DNA from: an uncultured Bacteroidales bacterium
Lineage (GTDB): Bacteria; Bacteroidota; Bacteroidia; Bacteroidales; FEN-979
Direction: 5' to 3'
Assembly (NCBI GenBank): GCA_903875045.1
Contig: CAIQUS010000035.1
Coordinates: 1-64,000 of the forward strand
DNA: 64,000 bases
The notes under the pieces were generated by a model, which was given only the letters and a program-made list of their open reading frames with translations, did no database searches and had not been told where the DNA came from. Every line of letters starts with the position of its first letter. The first letter of the stretch is position 1. Both the position numbers and the translations under genes were made by a program. Shown piece after piece: positions 28,207 through 38,379 of this stretch.

Positions 28207-31200
28207 GTGTCCTTCACCACCTATCAATCCTCCGCCGGCTCAGGAAAAACCTTCACCCTCGTAAAAGAGTACGTGAAGATCATCCTCCTTGAACCTTCTG
28301 ATTTCCGGCATGTTCTGGCCATCACCTTTACCAATAAGGCTGCCAATGAAATGAAGGAACGTGTGTTGAAAGCCCTTGAGCAACTGTCGAAAGGGGATCA
28401 CTCGGAAGATCAGATGGTCAGGGGAACTCTGGTACCTCTGCTGATGGCCGAGACCGGGCTGACATCGCATGAGATTTCCCTGAATGCGACAAAGGCGCTT
28501 GAAATGATCCTGCACAACTATGCAGATTTTGCCATTGGCACCATCGACAGCTTTTCGCATAAGCTGATCCGCACTTTTGCCCATGATTTTGGGTTACCCG
28601 TTAACTTTAATGTGGAGTTGGATGCAGATGAGTTGCTCTCGACGGCCGTTGACCTGTTGCTCGACAGGGTAGGCGATGATGATGCCCTGACCGCACTCCT
28701 GGTTAAGTTTCTCGAAACACGCATGGACGAAGACAAGGGGTGGAATATTGATTTAATCCTGACAGGATTTGCCAGATTATTGCTTGATGAGGAAGGACAA
28801 GGCAGGATCGGCAGGTTGAAAAACGTGTCGCTTGAAAGTTTTCGGATAATTTCCGAAAATCTTTATGCAAGCATCCGGAAATTTGAAGGAAGTATCCGGG
28901 AAATAGCGAAAGAAGGTGCTGCACATTTAAAAAATGGTCAATTTTCATCTGCCGACTTTTTTCAGGGGGAGCGAGGTATCTGGAAATATTTCACAAACCT
29001 CGCGGAAGGCAGGATGGACAAACTGGACCCCAATTCATTTGTGATCGCAACAGTTGAAGAAGATAAATGGTTTTCCGGAAAAGCATCATCAGCAGCGCGT
29101 GAGGCGATCACAACCGTTAAACCGGCACTGCTCGATTTGTATGAAAAACTTCGCCAAAAAATTGATCAGCACAAACCTGACTATGCTCTCCGGAAATTGC
29201 TTGCCAAAACCATTTATCCACTGGCGGTGCTGAATGAAATTGAGAAAATGCTCAACGATTTCAAGCACAGGAACAACCTTGTCCATATTTCAGAGTTTAA
29301 TGCACGCATTGCGGGTATTGTCATGAATGAGCCTGTCCCGTTTATTTATGAACGGCTGGGTGAAAAGTATCAGCATATTCTTATTGATGAATTTCAGGAT
29401 ACCTCTGCACTGCAATGGATGAATTTTATTCCACTCATCGAAAATTCCCTGGCCGGTGGTTTTTTTAACCTCGTGGTTGGCGATGGAAAACAGGCGATTT
29501 ACCGGTGGAGAGGGGGAGAAGTCGAACAGTTTAATGCCCTGCCTGCCATTGCCGGAAGTGACCGGAATCCGATTTTAAAGCAACGGCAGCAGGTTTTACA
29601 ACGCCATTTTGAAAAAGTCACCCTGGATCAGAATTACCGGTCAAAATCTGAAATTGTTGAATTTAACAATCGCTTTTTCAGAACGATTGCCGACGGCGTG
29701 CTCACCGCTGGCAAGGAGAAAATATTTGAAGGCCTCGAGCAACAATACAATCCGCAAAAAACCGGTGGGTATGTCAGCCTTGAATTTCTGGAACAGGATG
29801 ATGAAGAGCTGAATTATCATGAGAAAACACTGAAAAGGATCCATTCGGTCATATCTGAGGCCCAAAGGGATAATTTCAACCTTCGCGATATGGCTGTCCT
29901 GTGCCGGAGCAATAAAAATGCCAGCGCCATTGCCCGGTTCCTGATTGAACAAGGCGTGGATGTGGTTTCTGCAGAATCACTGCTCCTTTCCAATTCACCA
30001 AAAGTCAGGTTCCTGATTGCCTATCTGAAATTTTTATTTGAACCCAGGAATGACATTGTGATTGCGGAGATCAGGCAGTTTCTTCGGCATGCAGAAATCG
30101 TAACAGATTCGAAATGGGAGCAGGGACGCGATGAATTTTCCGTGTTGCCTGTATATGACTTGTGCGAAGCGCTTATCCGCTATTATCAGTTAAACTCAAC
30201 GTTGGATCCTTATCTGCAGTTTTTTCTTGATGCGGTATTGAAGTTTACGGTAAAAATTTCGACCGGTGCCTCGGAATTTCTTGACTGGTGGGATAAAAAC
30301 AGCGCTAAACTCTCCATCATTGTCCCGGAAGAGTTGAATGCAGTGAGGGTGATGACGATCCATAAGGCCAAAGGGCTGGAGTTTCCGCTGGTTATTCTTC
30401 CCTTCGCGCAGGAAACCCGGAAAAATACAAAAAGCTACCTTTGGGTCGATCTGGAGCCCGATGTGGCTTCGGGGCTTGAAACGGCCATTCTACAGAGTGA
30501 TAAGGAGATGGAATCGACGGTGTATCAGAATTTGTTTGTGGATGAACGCCAAAAATCGATGCTCGATCTGCTGAACCTGCTTTATGTGTCGATGACACGG
30601 CCGGAGGAAAGGTTGTACATACTGACGAAATTCCCACCAAAGAAGCAGGATGAGATTAGTTCTCTGCCGGGATTCTTCCAGCTTTTCCTGCAAAATGAAA
30701 ATATCTGGGTCGAAGGCCAGTCACAGTATGAATTTGGTTTGTCTTCCGGTCATGTTGAAAAGGCTGCCAGGCATACAACAGAGACAATCACCCGGCATAA
30801 GGTGATCAGTACCGATTGGCGCGATAAAATCAAAATCCGCATGCGGGCACCACAAATGTGGGATATGGAAAACCCGGTTCAGCAATCGCAATGGGGTAAC
30901 CGGATACATACTTTGCTGTCGTGGATAACCACCGGTACGGATGTACCTTTGGTACTCGATAAAGGTTTATTAACAGGGCTTATCTCCAATGCGGAGCGCG
31001 AAAATGTTGAAAAGATACTTTGGTCAATTCTTTCTGAGCCAATGCTCACACGGCTTTTCAGCGATCAGGTCAGGGTAAAAACGGAAGCGGAGATCCTGTT
31101 GCCCGAAGGATCGTTTTACCGGCCCGACCGCATTGTGTTTGACAACAACCAGGTAACCATTCTGGATTATAAGAGCGGGAAGCCCCATGTAAACCATGGT

Positions 31201-31305
31201 GAGCAACTTAAAAAATATGCCGGCTATATTGCTGAAATGGGTTATTCAAATATTCGCCGGGCATTGGTTTACCTGGAGCCAAAGGTAAAGGTGGTGGAAG
31301 TATAA
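28207..31305 (+). CDS. addA: AddA-like UvrD/Rep-family helicase-nuclease
   Basis: 1032-residue superfamily 1 helicase with a C-terminal nuclease, the AddA/RecB-type subunit that processes double-strand breaks for recombination. Walker A is SAGSGKT (Lys14), Walker B/motif II is IDEFQDTSALQW (Asp394-Glu395), motif III/IV-like GDGKQAIYRWRGGE, motif V MTIHKAKGLEFP and motif VI LYVSMTRPEERLYI. The C-terminal ~70 residues have a PD-(D/E)XK signature (YRPDRIVF, ILDYKSGK). The start is GTG 28207, directly after an 88-bp octamer repeat. The partner AddB-like gene is not adjacent but lies at 40379. The family call is firm; AddA versus another UvrD/RecB-like name rests on the nuclease motif and the AddB-like partner. 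Confidence 0.88.
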   Translation: MSFTTYQSSAGSGKTFTLVKEYVKIILLEPSDFRHVLAITFTNKAANEMKERVLKALEQLSKGDHSEDQMVRGTLVPLLMAETGLTSHEISLNATKALEMILHNYADFAIGTIDSFSHKLIRTFAHDFGLPVNFNVELDADELLSTAVDLLLDRVGDDDALTALLVKFLETRMDEDKGWNIDLILTGFARLLLDEEGQGRIGRLKNVSLESFRIISENLYASIRKFEGSIREIAKEGAAHLKNGQFSSADFFQGERGIWKYFTNLAEGRMDKLDPNSFVIATVEEDKWFSGKASSAAREAITTVKPALLDLYEKLRQKIDQHKPDYALRKLLAKTIYPLAVLNEIEKMLNDFKHRNNLVHISEFNARIAGIVMNEPVPFIYERLGEKYQHILIDEFQDTSALQWMNFIPLIENSLAGGFFNLVVGDGKQAIYRWRGGEVEQFNALPAIAGSDRNPILKQRQQVLQRHFEKVTLDQNYRSKSEIVEFNNRFFRTIADGVLTAGKEKIFEGLEQQYNPQKTGGYVSLEFLEQDDEELNYHEKTLKRIHSVISEAQRDNFNLRDMAVLCRSNKNASAIARFLIEQGVDVVSAESLLLSNSPKVRFLIAYLKFLFEPRNDIVIAEIRQFLRHAEIVTDSKWEQGRDEFSVLPVYDLCEALIRYYQLNSTLDPYLQFFLDAVLKFTVKISTGASEFLDWWDKNSAKLSIIVPEELNAVRVMTIHKAKGLEFPLVILPFAQETRKNTKSYLWVDLEPDVASGLETAILQSDKEMESTVYQNLFVDERQKSMLDLLNLLYVSMTRPEERLYILTKFPPKKQDEISSLPGFFQLFLQNENIWVEGQSQYEFGLSSGHVEKAARHTTETITRHKVISTDWRDKIKIRMRAPQMWDMENPVQQSQWGNRIHTLLSWITTGTDVPLVLDKGLLTGLISNAERENVEKILWSILSEPMLTRLFSDQVRVKTEAEILLPEGSFYRPDRIVFDNNQVTILDYKSGKPHVNHGEQLKKYAGYIAEMGYSNIRRALVYLEPKVKVVEV

Positions 31306-31318
31306 TACGAATCGCAGA

Positions 31319-32860
31319 ATGAAAACTATTGAACAAAATATAATTCAATTATTCAGGTCATGGAGTGGAACTGAACCTCAGTCGATCGTGAAATTGCCTG
31401 GGTCAGGTTCTTATCGGAGTTATTACAGACTGGCATCAGATCATATCACCGTTTTGGGTGCACATAATGACGATGTTCGTGAAAATGAAGCATTTATTTC
31501 GTTCACAAACCATTTTCGCAACGAAGGGCTGCCAGTACCTGAGATACTGGCCAACGATATTGCCAACCGGATTTACCTCATTTCCGACCTGGGAGATACT
31601 ACTTTGTACCAACTGCTTACCGAAAGAAAGGCTGCAATGAATCCCGGGATCCATGATGTGCCTCAGGCGGATGCAGCGGTTCAGTTTCCTCCGGACGTGC
31701 TGGAAATCTATAAAAAGGCAATCGGGTTTTTGCCGGCGTTCCAGGTCAAAGCAGGAAAAAAACTGGATTACAACGTTTGTTACCCGCGTGGCGCCTTTGA
31801 CCGGCAGTCGATGATGTGGGACCTAAACTACTTTAAATACTATTTTCTGAAATTGGCTAAGATCCCATTTGATGAGCAGGCATTGGAGGATGATTTTAAA
31901 AGCCTTTGTGATATTTTACTGCAAACGGATGATGATTTTTTTCTTTACCGTGATTTTCAGTCACGCAACATCATGGTCGTTGATGGTGAACCCTGGTTTA
32001 TTGATTATCAGGGAGGCAGGAGAGGAGCATTGCAATATGATGTTGCATCCTTGCTGACTGATGGAAAGGCTGATCTGCCTATGACTGTCAGAAAGGAGCT
32101 GTTAGACTTTTACCTGACCAAACTCAGTGAACTCCATCCGGTTGACGGTGAAAAGTTTATGAAAATCTATCATGGGTTTGCCTTGATTCGCATTCTGCAG
32201 GCATTGGGAGCTTATGGTTTCAGAGGATATTATGAAAATAAGCCCCATTTTCTTCAAAGTATTCCCTTTGCGTTGTCCAATCTTCGTTACATGCGCCTGA
32301 ACCGCCAGATCGGTTTTGGTCTCAAAACCCTGATGGATGTCATTGATATGATGATTGATGATTCAGCTATGTTAAAGTTAAATTTCGTTAAACATAATGA
32401 TCATATTGATTACCAAAGTGATAAACTAAAATTAATAGTAGATTCTGAAAATATTGAAAAGGGACTAACCATAACCATTCACAGTTTCTCTTATAAAAAT
32501 TCACTTCCTGTGGATGAAACAGGAAATGGGGGCGGCTTCATTTTTGATTGCCGTGCGTTGCCAAACCCCGGAAGATATGAGGAGTTTAAACAACTCAACG
32601 GCAAGGACCAGCCCGTGATTGACTATTTAACAAAAGAACCTGAGGTTGACTGTTTTCTGGCCCTGGTTTATTCGATGATCGACCAAAGCGTAAAAACCTA
32701 CCTCGACCGTAAATTCAGTCATCTGATGGTCTCATTTGGCTGTACAGGCGGGCAGCACCGGTCAGTTTACTGCGCCGAAAAACTGGCAGACCATCTGAAA
32801 AACAACCACCCACTCAAAATAAACCTCATCCACCTCGTCCAATCCCATCTTAACCCTTAA
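31319..32860 (+). CDS. AmgK-like sugar kinase fused to RapZ C-terminal domain
   Basis: 513-residue fusion. Residues ~1-340 are an aminoglycoside-phosphotransferase-type kinase. The catalytic loop reads YRDFQSRNIM and the metal-binding loop FIDYQGG, a form like AmgK, which phosphorylates N-acetylmuramic acid at C1 in peptidoglycan recycling. Residues ~355-513 match the C-terminal domain of RapZ: a SYKNSLP segment, FDCRALPNPGRY, GKDQPVIDYL and FGCTGGQHRSVYCAEKLADH. In E. coli that domain binds glucosamine-6-phosphate. The N-terminal P-loop domain of RapZ is replaced here by the kinase, and the basic RNA-binding C-terminal tail of E. coli RapZ is absent (it ends HLVQSHLNP). The next gene is murU-like, which supports the salvage role. 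Feedback by an amino-sugar phosphate is my inference. Confidence 0.85.
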   Translation: MKTIEQNIIQLFRSWSGTEPQSIVKLPGSGSYRSYYRLASDHITVLGAHNDDVRENEAFISFTNHFRNEGLPVPEILANDIANRIYLISDLGDTTLYQLLTERKAAMNPGIHDVPQADAAVQFPPDVLEIYKKAIGFLPAFQVKAGKKLDYNVCYPRGAFDRQSMMWDLNYFKYYFLKLAKIPFDEQALEDDFKSLCDILLQTDDDFFLYRDFQSRNIMVVDGEPWFIDYQGGRRGALQYDVASLLTDGKADLPMTVRKELLDFYLTKLSELHPVDGEKFMKIYHGFALIRILQALGAYGFRGYYENKPHFLQSIPFALSNLRYMRLNRQIGFGLKTLMDVIDMMIDDSAMLKLNFVKHNDHIDYQSDKLKLIVDSENIEKGLTITIHSFSYKNSLPVDETGNGGGFIFDCRALPNPGRYEEFKQLNGKDQPVIDYLTKEPEVDCFLALVYSMIDQSVKTYLDRKFSHLMVSFGCTGGQHRSVYCAEKLADHLKNNHPLKINLIHLVQSHLNP

Positions 32861-32886
32861 TCACTTAATTACTTAACCCTTAACCC
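32850..32886. repeat. 7-8-bp tandem repeat spanning a stop codon
   Basis: Units TTAACCC, TTAATCAC, TTAATTAC, TTAACCC, TTAACCC run through the stop codon of the kinase-RapZ gene (32858-32860) and end 9 bp before the ATG of the murU-like gene. The repeat therefore forms the whole intergenic region. Confidence 0.8.
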
Positions 32887-32895
32887 ATATTTTCG

Positions 32896-33591
32896 ATGAA
32901 AGCCATGATCCTCGCCGCAGGTCTCGGCACACGACTCAAACCATTTACCGATTTCCATCCCAAGGCGCTATTTGTCGTGGAGGGTAAAACCTTGCTTGAG
33001 CACGCAATCAATCATCTGAAAACAACTGAAATTAATGATGTAATTATCAATGTACATCATTTTGCTAATCAGATAATTGATTTTATTCATTTGCACAATA
33101 ACTTTGGGTTAAATATTTCGATTTCCGATGAAACCGGGGAGCTGCTTGAAACGGGTGGCGGATTAAAAAAGGCTGGCTGGTTTTTTCATAACTGCGACAG
33201 GGCCATCATCCGGAATGTTGATATTCTTTCTGATCTTGATATTGCTAAGATGGCGGATTCTCATCTGAGTTCAAATTCAATAGCCACCCTTGCGGTTCGT
33301 CCTCGTCAAACCTCACGGTACTTACTCTTTGATAACCAGATGAACCTCTGCGGCTGGGAAAACCAGAAAACTGGTGAAAGACGTTTAGCGAAAGCAACCC
33401 GGGAATTGACCAGCTATGCATTCAGCGGGATTCAAATCATTGATCCGATGATATTTCCACTGATCCAAGAGGAGGGGTCATTTTCATTGACAAATCTCTA
33501 CTTAAGGCTGGCAGAAACGCAAAAAATTACTGGCTATCTGGAAGAAGGGGATTTGTGGAGAGATGTTGGGACAATGACAAGTGACAAATGA
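32896..33591 (+). CDS. murU: MurU-like nucleotidyltransferase
   Basis: 231-residue sugar-1-phosphate nucleotidyltransferase. The N-terminus carries the family signature AAGLGTRLKPFTDFHPKAL (nucleotide-binding loop and catalytic Lys), and the middle has ETGGGLKKAG and an NVDILSDLD segment that supplies metal-binding Asp residues. Length and the single-domain form fit MurU, which makes UDP-MurNAc from MurNAc-1-phosphate. It follows the AmgK-like kinase gene by 35 bp, reproducing the amgK-murU pair of the anabolic MurNAc recycling route that bypasses de novo synthesis. Substrate choice (MurNAc-1-P against another sugar phosphate such as mannose-1-P) is inferred mostly from that pairing. Confidence 0.82.
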   Translation: MKAMILAAGLGTRLKPFTDFHPKALFVVEGKTLLEHAINHLKTTEINDVIINVHHFANQIIDFIHLHNNFGLNISISDETGELLETGGGLKKAGWFFHNCDRAIIRNVDILSDLDIAKMADSHLSSNSIATLAVRPRQTSRYLLFDNQMNLCGWENQKTGERRLAKATRELTSYAFSGIQIIDPMIFPLIQEEGSFSLTNLYLRLAETQKITGYLEEGDLWRDVGTMTSDK

Positions 33592-35738: not shown

Positions 35739-36644
35739 ATGAAAATAATTAACAAGTTTTTTCTTCTGATGGTATTCATACTGGCTGTTCCGGGTTTTAC
35801 CATTTTTGGCCAGGTTAGCGTTACCAATGATGGAAGTGCACCTGGAAATTCCGCTATGCTAGATGTAAAGTCCACGAACAAGGGATTTTTACCTCCACGG
35901 ATGACCACTTCCCAGCGCAATGCCATTGCAGCTCCTGAAGAAGGTCTGATGATTTTCAACATCACTACCGGATATATTGATTATTATTTTGGAGGATCAT
36001 GGAAATCATTGGCCGGTGTAAGCGAACCAGTGTTTCAGTGCGGGATGAAAGTGACCGATGTCCGTGATGGAAAATTGTATAATACGGTAAAAATAGGAAA
36101 CCAATGCTGGATGGCGGAAAACATGAATGTGGGAAACCGGCTTGACAGCACCGTTCTGCCAACAAACAACGGGATTATTGAAAAATTTTGTTTTCATGAT
36201 CTGGAGGCAAATTGTTCGGTTTATGGCGGGTTGTATACCTGGCATGAAATCATGCAATATTCCGAAACACCCGGAATTCAGGGAATTTGTCCGGCTGGCT
36301 GGCATATCCCTGCTGATGCTGAATTGACTGCACTGGTCGATTTTCTGGGAGGAACCGATGTGGCCGCCGATAAAATGAAAGAAGCCGGGACTGCCCACTG
36401 GCTGGCGCCAAACCTGGGAACCAATGAGAGTGGTTTTACAGGTTTGGGTACCGGAATGCAGGATTTTTATTGGGATTATTCCTACTGGGACCTGAATTTA
36501 TATACCTTCTTCTGGTCGTCAACCTTGTTTGACACGGCATCTGCTTATGGTTACTACCTGGGGGTCAATACCTATTCTACAGGTATTTTCAGAACATACA
36601 GCTGGAAAAATTACAGGATGTCTGTCAGATGTTTGCAGAATTAA
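35739..36644 (+). CDS. Exported FISUMP-domain protein
   Basis: 301-residue exported protein. I start it at 35739, where a good signal peptide begins (MKIINKFFLLMVFILAVPGF, cleaved near IFGQ); the frame is open upstream only through the CAAAT repeat. Residues ~25-95 are the N-terminal module shared with the proteins at 4310 and 36664 (SVTNDGSAPGNSAMLDVKS, FLPPRMT). Residues ~105-301 are an intact FISUMP domain: VTDVRDGKLYNTVKIGNQCW, CPAGWHIPADAE and a final MSVRCLQN. It is followed after 19 bp by the fibre-like gene, and probably heads an operon of three exported proteins. The surface role is unknown. Confidence 0.85.
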   Translation: MKIINKFFLLMVFILAVPGFTIFGQVSVTNDGSAPGNSAMLDVKSTNKGFLPPRMTTSQRNAIAAPEEGLMIFNITTGYIDYYFGGSWKSLAGVSEPVFQCGMKVTDVRDGKLYNTVKIGNQCWMAENMNVGNRLDSTVLPTNNGIIEKFCFHDLEANCSVYGGLYTWHEIMQYSETPGIQGICPAGWHIPADAELTALVDFLGGTDVAADKMKEAGTAHWLAPNLGTNESGFTGLGTGMQDFYWDYSYWDLNLYTFFWSSTLFDTASAYGYYLGVNTYSTGIFRTYSWKNYRMSVRCLQN

Positions 36645-36663
36645 TGTTTTTATAACTCTCCAC

Positions 36664-38379
36664 ATGAAGAATCAATTGCTGTTACTCAGTTTTGCCCTAA
36701 TTTTTGTTCTGATCACAGTTCAACTTTCTGCTCAGGTAGCAGTTAACACCGATGGCAATGGCCCGGATGCATCGGCCATGCTTGATGTCAAATCAACCGC
36801 CATGGGCATGCTGATTCCACGCATGACAATGGCTGAGCGAGATGCGATCGTCAGCCCGGCCACAGGGTTGATCCTGTTCCAAACCGACAATACAGGCGGT
36901 TTTTATTATAATTCAGGCACGCCGGAAGCCCCTTTGTGGATGCCTGTTGGCAGCACAAGTGGCTGGGGTACCACTGGAAACGGCGGCTTGACAACAGGCA
37001 TCAATTTTCTTGGAACCACCGATGATGTTCCGCTCATGTTCAAAGTCAACAACCAACTGGCCGGGAAAATCGAAAGTTTTAATACTGCACTGGGATTGAA
37101 TGCAATGTATGCCAATACAACTGGTTCAGGCAACATTGCCGTTGGAACCGGTGCATTGTACAACAATACCGTGCGGGGCAGTCTTGTTGCCATTGGCGAT
37201 TCCGCCATGTACGGCAATTTGTCGGGGCTGCAAAATACTGCAATCGGATCAAAGGCATTGTTTTCGAATACCGACGGGTCGTATAATACGGCGGCAGGCT
37301 ATAACGCAATGAAATACAATACTATAGGTTATGGCAATACGGCTTTCGGCGAAAGTGCTTTGTTGTCAAATACTTACGGTTTTCATAATACTGCAACTGG
37401 TACCAGTTCATTACGTAACAATTCAAGCGGAAAATATAATACCGCCAACGGGGTAGTTGCACTTTATGCCAATACAGAGGGTGAAGCGAATACCGCAACC
37501 GGGGCTTATGCCCTTTCTTCCAATCAGATAGGACTTTATAATACAGCCACCGGATTCAGATCACTGGAATTCAACAATGCAGGCGATTATAACACGGCAA
37601 ACGGGGTGGAGTCGCTGAATAAAAACACCATCGGATACCACAATACCGCAAGTGGCTGCGATGCCCTCTACCATAACACTGAAGGATATGGGAACAGTGC
37701 CATGGGGATGGAGACGATGATGGGAAACACGATGGGCAGCAACAATTCTGCATTTGGCATGCATGCACTCCGCCAAAACTCAAACGGTAATAACAATACC
37801 GCCTGCGGATACAAAGCAATCTATCATACAGGAGGAAGTGCCAATGTGGCCATCGGATCATATGCCGGTTATTACGAAACAGGAAGTAACAAACTCTATA
37901 TCGACAATTCAAGCAGGGGAAATCAGCAAAATGCCATGTCGATGGGTTTGATCTATGGCGAGTTCAATGCCGACCCGGCTTTTCAGAAGCTGGTTATCAA
38001 TGGTAATGTGGGTATTGGCACCGTGTATCCGACACATAAATTATCGGTGAATGGTGCCATCCGGGCAAAAGAGGTGGTGGTCAATACAGGATGGTCCGAC
38101 TTTGTATTTGAATCAGATTATAACCTGATGCCGCTGTATAACCTGGAAAAATATATTCTTCAAAACAAACATCTGCCTGATATTCCCGATGCTGCAGAGG
38201 TTGATAAAAACGGTGTCAGCCTTGGCGAAATGGATTCAAAACTGCTGCAAAAAATTGAAGAGTTATCCTTGTATGTCATTGCGCTGAATAAGAAGGTCGA
38301 CAATCTACAGAGCGAAAACAAAACATTGAAAGAGCAGATAAAAAAGGTTGTTAAAGAGCATTATATTCAGGAAAAATGA
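36664..38379 (+). CDS. Exported fibre-like protein with YadA-head-type repeats
   Basis: 571-residue exported protein. I start it at ATG 36664 because a signal peptide begins there (MKNQLLLLSFALIFVLITVQ); the longer frame overlaps the previous gene. Residues ~25-100 are the shared module (VAVNTDGNGPDASAMLDVKS). Residues ~140-430 hold some 12-14 repeats of about 24 residues of the form NTA-x-G-x3-L-x2-NT-x2-G, resembling trimeric-autotransporter (YadA/Hia head) or phage-tail-fibre beta-rolls. The end (VGIGTVYPTHKLSVNGAIRA, then a Leu-rich coiled coil) matches the C-terminal part of Bacteroidota tail-fibre-domain proteins. It is likely a trimeric surface fibre. It overlaps the metalloprotease gene by 4 bp (ATGA). 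Confidence 0.8.
   Translation: MKNQLLLLSFALIFVLITVQLSAQVAVNTDGNGPDASAMLDVKSTAMGMLIPRMTMAERDAIVSPATGLILFQTDNTGGFYYNSGTPEAPLWMPVGSTSGWGTTGNGGLTTGINFLGTTDDVPLMFKVNNQLAGKIESFNTALGLNAMYANTTGSGNIAVGTGALYNNTVRGSLVAIGDSAMYGNLSGLQNTAIGSKALFSNTDGSYNTAAGYNAMKYNTIGYGNTAFGESALLSNTYGFHNTATGTSSLRNNSSGKYNTANGVVALYANTEGEANTATGAYALSSNQIGLYNTATGFRSLEFNNAGDYNTANGVESLNKNTIGYHNTASGCDALYHNTEGYGNSAMGMETMMGNTMGSNNSAFGMHALRQNSNGNNNTACGYKAIYHTGGSANVAIGSYAGYYETGSNKLYIDNSSRGNQQNAMSMGLIYGEFNADPAFQKLVINGNVGIGTVYPTHKLSVNGAIRAKEVVVNTGWSDFVFESDYNLMPLYNLEKYILQNKHLPDIPDAAEVDKNGVSLGEMDSKLLQKIEELSLYVIALNKKVDNLQSENKTLKEQIKKVVKEHYIQEK

Follow-up and report, generated by a model that had tools for sequence, protein, structure and literature searches.

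One protein of an uncultured Bacteroidales bacterium joins an AmgK-like sugar kinase to the C-terminal domain of RapZ (RapZ_C). It is encoded in a stretch of 64,000 nucleotides (GTDB lineage FEN-979; assembly GCA_903875045.1, contig CAIQUS010000035.1, positions 1 to 64,000 of the forward strand), which we call the window in the following. The join is genuine and no chance event, since 106 further fused proteins could be aligned with it. We read this fusion as the AmgK form of Bacteroidota and their kin and file it as an AmgK variant, not as a RapZ. Within the phylum the AmgK-like kinase stands in for MurQ, and the distribution of RapZ_C over genomes suggests that the substrate or ligand of this half of the protein is a 6-phosphorylated wall sugar, which it may dephosphorylate. 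We tentatively favor the reading, to which we give slightly less than an even chance, that RapZ_C is a phosphatase for N-acetylmuramic acid 6-phosphate (MurNAc-6-P) fused to AmgK, with substrates, chemistry and direction that we infer.

An earlier note on this DNA, written from its letters alone, had described an AmgK-like kinase fused to RapZ_C and followed by a MurU-like gene. Open reading frames (ORFs), Pfam and NCBIfam agree with this description, and the translation of the fusion contains YRDFQSRN, FIDYQGG, ALPNPGRY and GCTGGQHRSVY as named there. The features are as follows.

31319..32860, plus strand: fusion of an AmgK-like sugar kinase and the RapZ C-terminal domain, 513 aa (ORF, Pfam, structural model)
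31472..32128, plus strand: kinase domain of the aminoglycoside phosphotransferase (APH)/AmgK-like type, residues 52-270 (PF01636, 42.1 bits, cut-off 23.2)
31946..31969, plus strand: kinase catalytic loop YRDFQSRN, residues 210-217, with D212 and N217 (invariance in the alignment)
32000..32011, plus strand: IDYQ, residues 228-231, a putative metal-binding motif (invariance in the alignment)
32375..32464, plus strand: interdomain linker, residues 353-382 (low model confidence, weak conservation)
32465..32824, plus strand: RapZ_C, residues 383-502 (PF22740, 116.1 bits, cut-off 27)
32522..32536, plus strand: GNGGG insertion, residues 402-406, of which ..GGG marks the clade of AmgK-associated RapZ_C
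32564..32575, plus strand: NPGR, residues 416-419, with Gly at the position of E. coli His190 and Arg/Lys at that of Trp191
32741..32764, plus strand: phosphate pocket CTGGQHRS, residues 475-482, a CX5R(S) loop (invariance in the alignment)
32896..33591, plus strand: MurU-like nucleotidyltransferase, 231 aa, 35 bases downstream of the fusion (NCBIfam, relatives in the Protein Data Bank, PDB)

The kinase half resembles AmgK of the AmgK/MurU pathway of Pseudomonas and Caulobacter in its APH-type fold family with D..N and D.Q motifs, in its MurU-like neighbor and in replacing MurQ. R211, D212, R216 and N217 of the catalytic loop are without variation in all 84 aligned fusions, as are I228, D229 and Q231 of the second motif, which we take, by analogy with APH kinases, to bind metal. 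The fusion differs from AmgK in that RapZ_C follows the kinase and in that its scores lie below the curated cut-offs. The two NCBIfam AmgK models score 53.6 bits (cut-off 500) and 41.2 bits (cut-off 550) and cover the protein only as far as residue 323, and the RapZ equivalog reaches 108.1 bits against a cut-off of 244. Pfam reports neither the RapZ N-terminal P-loop domain (PF03668) nor a haloacid dehalogenase (HAD) family in the fusion, PF03668 has no match in the organism's own genome, and the alignment shows a C-terminal tail without basic character. The earlier note was thus right that both the P-loop domain and the basic RNA-binding tail are missing. The fusion carries the sole RapZ_C found in its genome. 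At E 1e-14 or better it matches, among PDB sequences, RapZ chains and the APH-like 3csv.

The best NCBIfam models for the downstream ORF are MurU models, at 127.4 bits (cut-off 250) and 110.2 bits (cut-off 370), both below cut-off. Pfam finds an NTP_transferase domain in it, and its PDB relatives are nucleotidyltransferases, namely 4y7t and 8hhd, the latter entry being named MurU. We scanned one genome per species for relatives of the fusion and examined the best 80 of 355. Most of their records carry Bacteroidota labels, with further ones from Ignavibacteria, Calditrichota, KSB1, Marinimicrobia and Elusimicrobia. MurU is adjacent (downstream, same strand, at most 700 bases) in 78 of the 79 assessable loci; the exception, L026, has a distant partial MurU match only, and L008 was left out of this count because its sequence ends too early. 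Over the 80 loci MurU is the only near-constant neighbor.

We then profiled 296 genomes of Bacteroidota, the phylum of the window. RapZ_C was found in 36 of them, fused to the kinase in 27, split into three neighboring genes for kinase, RapZ_C and MurU in 7, and distant from the kinase in 2 (547 kb away in G271, on another contig in G180). MurU was seen within about 1.4 kb in 20 of the 26 fused loci of this sample other than the window. Full RapZ (PF03668) above cut-off was found in 0/296 genomes, so that both the recurrence of the fusion and the lack of stand-alone RapZ, which the earlier note had envisaged, are borne out. The AmgK-like kinase is present in 100/296 genomes, with 37 strong and 63 weaker matches. 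The strong matches are those of all 36 genomes with RapZ_C and of one more, G009, whereas the weaker ones all belong to a single family, f18. RapZ_C and the strong kinase therefore go together: 36/36 genomes with RapZ_C have the kinase, and 36/37 genomes with a strong kinase have RapZ_C.

The kinase and MurQ exclude each other almost completely. We counted MurQ at E below 1e-50 (210/296 genomes; 203/296 at the curated cut-off), since weaker matches resemble other SIS-domain proteins. The kinase occurs in 84/86 genomes without MurQ and in 16/210 with it (Fisher 1.7e-54), and outside f18 in 21/21 and 16/210, respectively (3.9e-20), with kinship left out of account in both p values. In Proteobacteria, too, AmgK-MurU and MurQ are described as replacing each other in this way (PMC5371407). 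The setting in MurNAc salvage, which the earlier note had assumed, is thereby upheld. In the genome of the window AnmK and NamZ are present, and a strong MurQ match is missing. In five f18 loci that we read, NamZ adjoins the kinase and the MurU-like gene, which is in keeping with MurNAc salvage. One of these regions (L145:3015-7610) holds a run of amgK, murU, NamZ and a sodium symporter, without RapZ_C.

RapZ_C was also compared with kinases that are expected to make MurNAc-6-P. AnmK is present in 207/296 genomes. Thirteen genomes, in 7 families, have AnmK and lack MurQ, and all 13 have RapZ_C. The 10 genomes with RapZ_C and without AnmK each encode a PF01869 (BadF-type) protein above the Pfam cut-off. 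In nine genomes (G019, G031, G116, G124, G140, G156, G188, G267, G294) the PF01869 protein resembles the kinase of G116 and lies near an AmpG-like permease, which adjoins it in 8 and is one gene off in G156. The nearest solved relative of the G116 and G267 proteins is a MurNAc/N-acetylglucosamine (GlcNAc) kinase, and we refer to the class as MurK-like. The PF01869 protein of G230 is about equally close to three solved chains, of which one carries the name putative MurNAc kinase, and lies beside MurQ and near NamZ. Conversely, G009, which has the kinase and no RapZ_C, gave no PF01869 match. PF01869 matches above cut-off (about 197-228 bits) occur in 18 of the 63 f18 kinase genomes, and the remainder have weak ones or none; the five of these 18 that we read show no resemblance to the MurK-like queries, and three of the five, when scanned, proved to be acyl-CoA dehydratase activases. 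With a MurK-like class that we defined post hoc, after the exceptions to AnmK had been seen, 36/36 kinase genomes with RapZ_C have AnmK or a MurK-like kinase (26 by AnmK, 10 by PF01869), against 0/64 kinase genomes without it (G009 and the 63 of f18). MurK-like kinases adjoining an AmpG-like permease were seen where AnmK is missing and also in relatives that lack the AmgK kinase (L155:1125-3341, L156:2207-4391), and another region (L157:1926-6000) holds a run of MurQ, a MurK-like kinase, a DUF5009/NagX-like membrane protein and NamZ.

The RapZ_C half is the most conserved part of the fusion, with a mean majority share of 0.68 compared to 0.54 and 0.65 in the two kinase lobes and 0.21 in the linker, which spans 4-36 residues and is weakly conserved. 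Conservation was read from the window and 106 loci, 107 fused rows in all (L037 and L086 come from one genome), and from 9 separate RapZ_C rows. The C, T, G, G, H, R and S of GCTGGxHRS are invariant in 107/107 fused and 9/9 separate rows, and D410 is invariant in the fusion alignment. The earlier note had expected the residues that contact glucosamine-6-phosphate (GlcN6P) in RapZ to be conserved. Of the five pocket positions H190, T248, G249, H252 and R253, four are kept in 107/107 fused rows; His190 is Gly in all rows, and the next residue is Arg or Lys in 106/107 fused rows. Canonical RapZ varies at 190 as well: the 8 canonical rows have H, F, Y or N there, followed by W or Y, so that NP[HFYN][WY] of canonical RapZ stands against NPG[RK] of the fusion. 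AmgK-associated RapZ_C rows share NPG[RK] together with the GNGGG-type insertion, of which G404 is kept in 82/84 and G405 and G406 in 84/84 fusions while the first two letters vary. The ..GGG insertion is absent from the 8 canonical RapZ rows and from 2 rows of Streptomyces plasmids. In a tree of 47 rows all 37 AmgK-associated RapZ_C rows form one clade with support 100/100. Only 9 of its 44 inner branches are well supported, too few to count how often the genes split.

The predicted structure agrees with the domain assignment. The full model, built from 84 fusions, has a mean predicted local distance difference test score (pLDDT) of 90.5, which falls below 50 at residues 355-380; its best match is 3csv, for the kinase, followed by other APH-like kinases and RapZ chains. 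RapZ_C modeled alone from 58 sequences (pLDDT 91.3) matches 5o5s, a RapZ chain, with a template modeling (TM) score of 0.92 on the target. It thus shares the fold of the E. coli RapZ C-terminal domain and its phosphate pocket of C, T, G, G, H, R and S, and it differs from E. coli RapZ in lacking the N-terminal domain, in carrying the ..GGG insertion, in having Phe in place of R238 and in forming the separate clade. In the domain model the C475-R481-S482 loop is flanked by strand 97-104 and helix 110-125.

We propose the following route. An AnmK or MurK-like kinase would supply MurNAc-6-P upstream. Cys475 of the CX5R(S) loop would attack the 6-phosphate, which Arg481, His480 and the loop amides would hold, and the freed MurNAc would pass to the kinase half. 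From there, as homology and the genome profile indicate, kinase and MurU would convert MurNAc to MurNAc-1-P and then to UDP-MurNAc, bypassing MurQ. C-x5-R-S is the signature of Cys phosphatases. In these enzymes, such as protein tyrosine phosphatases (PTP) and their low-molecular-weight form (LMW-PTP), a C-x5-R-S loop between strand and helix likewise holds oxyanions. The literature on the E. coli pocket also points to a bound and perhaps reactive phosphosugar: the RapZ C-terminal domain binds GlcN6P, its pocket held malonate or sulphate, the variants H190A, G249W, R253A and C247A/S lose activity, and the authors themselves raise a catalytic SH group and report a likely transformed GlcN6P product in the crystal pocket (PMC5737377, PMC7073468, PMC9841335). 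RapZ_C would occupy the step that is served in Pseudomonas by MupP, an unrelated HAD phosphatase. MupP acts at the step that we propose for RapZ_C and was itself discovered through a similar profile, with AmgK-MurU and against MurQ (PMC5371407), although the fold is a different one. A MupP-like HAD enzyme does not appear to be the shared solution here. The genome of the window has five HAD_2 matches, one of them Gph-like, and in a comparison that covered the relatives of this Gph-like protein only, they occur in 12/48 genomes and yet in just 1 of the 13 genomes with AnmK and without MurQ, the window's own. We prefer a phosphatase to a sensor because of the motif, the literature on the pocket, the genome profile, the fact that the domain can stand apart from the kinase, and the finding that no Gph-like HAD protein is shared.

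A number of observations weigh against a phosphatase. RapZ_C is not associated with AnmK alone (26/36 genomes with RapZ_C and 181/260 without, p 0.85), and outside f18 the association is negative (p 0.001). We accordingly reject a simple dependence of RapZ_C on AnmK, given the p value over the 296 genomes and the 10 of 36 without AnmK. The tight profile hence depends on the MurK-like class, and the bare Pfam cut-off for PF01869, as used on the 10 genomes, would give 18/64 instead of 0. This class is a lineage trait, occurring together with the same permease in the kinase-less relatives G051 and G148, and its members may not act on MurNAc, because the best NCBIfam name of those scanned is GlcNAc kinase, below cut-off. 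A low-scoring MurK such as that of G230 (35.6 bits; not above cut-off in a second search) could have escaped detection in f18. The AnmK match in G216 is weak (1.2e-10), where a MurK-like kinase and the permease are also present. Independent contrasts are few, since all but one of the 64 kinase genomes that lack RapZ_C belong to a single family. Furthermore, 16 of the 36 genomes with RapZ_C also have MurQ, and free MurNAc may be available to these cells, because NamZ is present in 35/36. With respect to the chemistry, the CX5R(S) loop is equally invariant in the 8 canonical RapZ rows, and these proteins are regulators for which the available parts of PMC5737377, PMC7073468 and PMC9841335 report no phosphatase activity. 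We identified no general acid for the proposed Cys chemistry, and a phosphatase working opposite to MurK risks a futile cycle. Finally, a Foldseek search with RapZ_C gave no CX5R phosphatase, PTP or LMW-PTP among the 50 listed of 288 matches, and those at E 0.001 or better were, among the matches listed, RapZ chains only.

Alternatively, RapZ_C could be an allosteric or trans-acting sensor of a 6-phospho amino sugar (MurNAc-6-P, GlcNAc-6-P or GlcN-6-P) that adjusts the activity of the kinase and involves neither chemistry nor RNA. We consider this only somewhat less likely than a phosphatase. The E. coli domain binds GlcN6P and regulates (PMC7073468, PMC5737377), the pocket is retained save for His190, and sensing of MurNAc-6-P would yield the very same genome profile. 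On the other hand, the linker is flexible and weakly conserved, RapZ_C is a separate gene in 9/36 genomes and its conservation exceeds that of the kinase lobes that it would serve. Together with the Cys-phosphatase motif, these points tell against the allosteric sensor of the earlier note, which nonetheless keeps a fair probability. GlcN6P, the ligand proposed there, is expected in practically every bacterium. Sensing it gives no reason to track AnmK or MurK-like kinases, which RapZ_C does, and His190, which is needed in RapZ, is Gly in 107/107 fused rows; we therefore doubt that the ligand is GlcN6P. The domain might instead be a dimerizing or MurU-docking scaffold that passes on MurNAc-1-P, its pocket being an inherited relic. 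RapZ C-terminal domains do form dimers in crystals (PMC5737377), and MurU is the near-constant neighbor. We consider this unlikely, as invariance in 107/107 rows is not expected of a relic pocket and two genomes hold RapZ_C apart from the kinase.

Less probable still is that the kinase-MurU pair serves a sugar other than MurNAc, outside wall salvage. Both proteins stay far short of the curated cut-offs for AmgK and MurU, which would allow it, whereas the near-perfect exchange with MurQ and NamZ beside the MurU-like gene in the five f18 loci argue against it. Hardly any probability remains, in our view, for an RNA adapter like RapZ, which is what automatic annotation makes of at least one Bacteroides fusion, named "RNase adapter RapZ". 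Two residues fit such a role, K170, kept as K or R in 105/107 fused rows, and R184, kept in 107/107. The protein, however, has neither the N-terminal domain nor the basic tail, and besides the exchange of His190 it has Phe in place of R238 in 105/107 fused rows, where the 8 canonical rows all have Lys or Arg. The exchange of K251 for Gln in 101/107 fused rows is weaker evidence, because one canonical row, from Enterococcus, likewise has Gln. The missing tail is not special to the fusion either: RNA-binding residues are reported to be confined to Enterobacteriaceae, whereas the phosphate pocket is widely conserved in RapZ (PMC7073468), and a basic surface and tail therefore mark enteric RapZ only. 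The exchange of R238 and the missing basic tail fit the RNA-free role suggested by the earlier note.

The fusion is not simply a relocated RapZ, since in three genomes (Marinimicrobia and Elusimicrobia; out of 22, mostly of other groups, that were reached via the loci) it coexists with a second RapZ_C protein of canonical type. In fusion-bearing genomes canonical-type RapZ was seen beside a gene that reads as HPr-kinase-like (L128:1003-1869, L129:1006-1869, L130:406-1869). RapZ_C also matched 25 of 77 Streptomyces plasmid records; in the two that we read (L139:4001-4483, L140:3956-4396) it is a stand-alone, diverged protein that lies among mostly hypothetical genes. Upstream of the fusion in the window, a RecB-like helicase-nuclease gene (28207-31305) ends 13 bases ahead of it. 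Of the 80 loci, 29 include a RecB-like relative, which in two cases is not upstream. The order RecB-like gene, fusion, MurU recurs in a record labeled Alphaproteobacteria (L055) as in the Bacteroidales locus L053, and the former is probably a mislabeled bin. Downstream, at 36529-38379, a 616-aa ORF with many short NTA.G..AL repeats resembles, from its translation, the head of a trimeric surface adhesin. In the open-access literature of one library we found no paper joining RapZ with AmgK, with MurU or with a Bacteroidetes fusion, and RapZ was absent among the matches listed for CX5R or tyrosine phosphatases. The published AmgK of Tannerella forsythia could be this same fusion.

Work on the RapZ C-terminal domain has treated it as a GlcN6P sensor that binds RNA and whose chemistry is unexplained, in that its Cys is not replaceable by Ser and a likely transformed product was seen. 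With the same pocket tied to a wall-salvage kinase, the question whether RapZ_C is an enzyme becomes directly testable. In its widest form our proposal is a more speculative possibility: RapZ_C would be a Cys-dependent sugar-6-phosphatase, the missing MurNAc-6-P phosphatase of Bacteroidota and related phyla, joined to the kinase that consumes its product, and the RNA regulator RapZ of E. coli would be built on a captured, perhaps still partly active enzyme of wall-sugar salvage. Some proteins now named "RNase adapter RapZ", of which we saw one, may in fact be sugar kinases. For Bacteroidota, the fusion offers a candidate for the missing step in MurNAc recycling.

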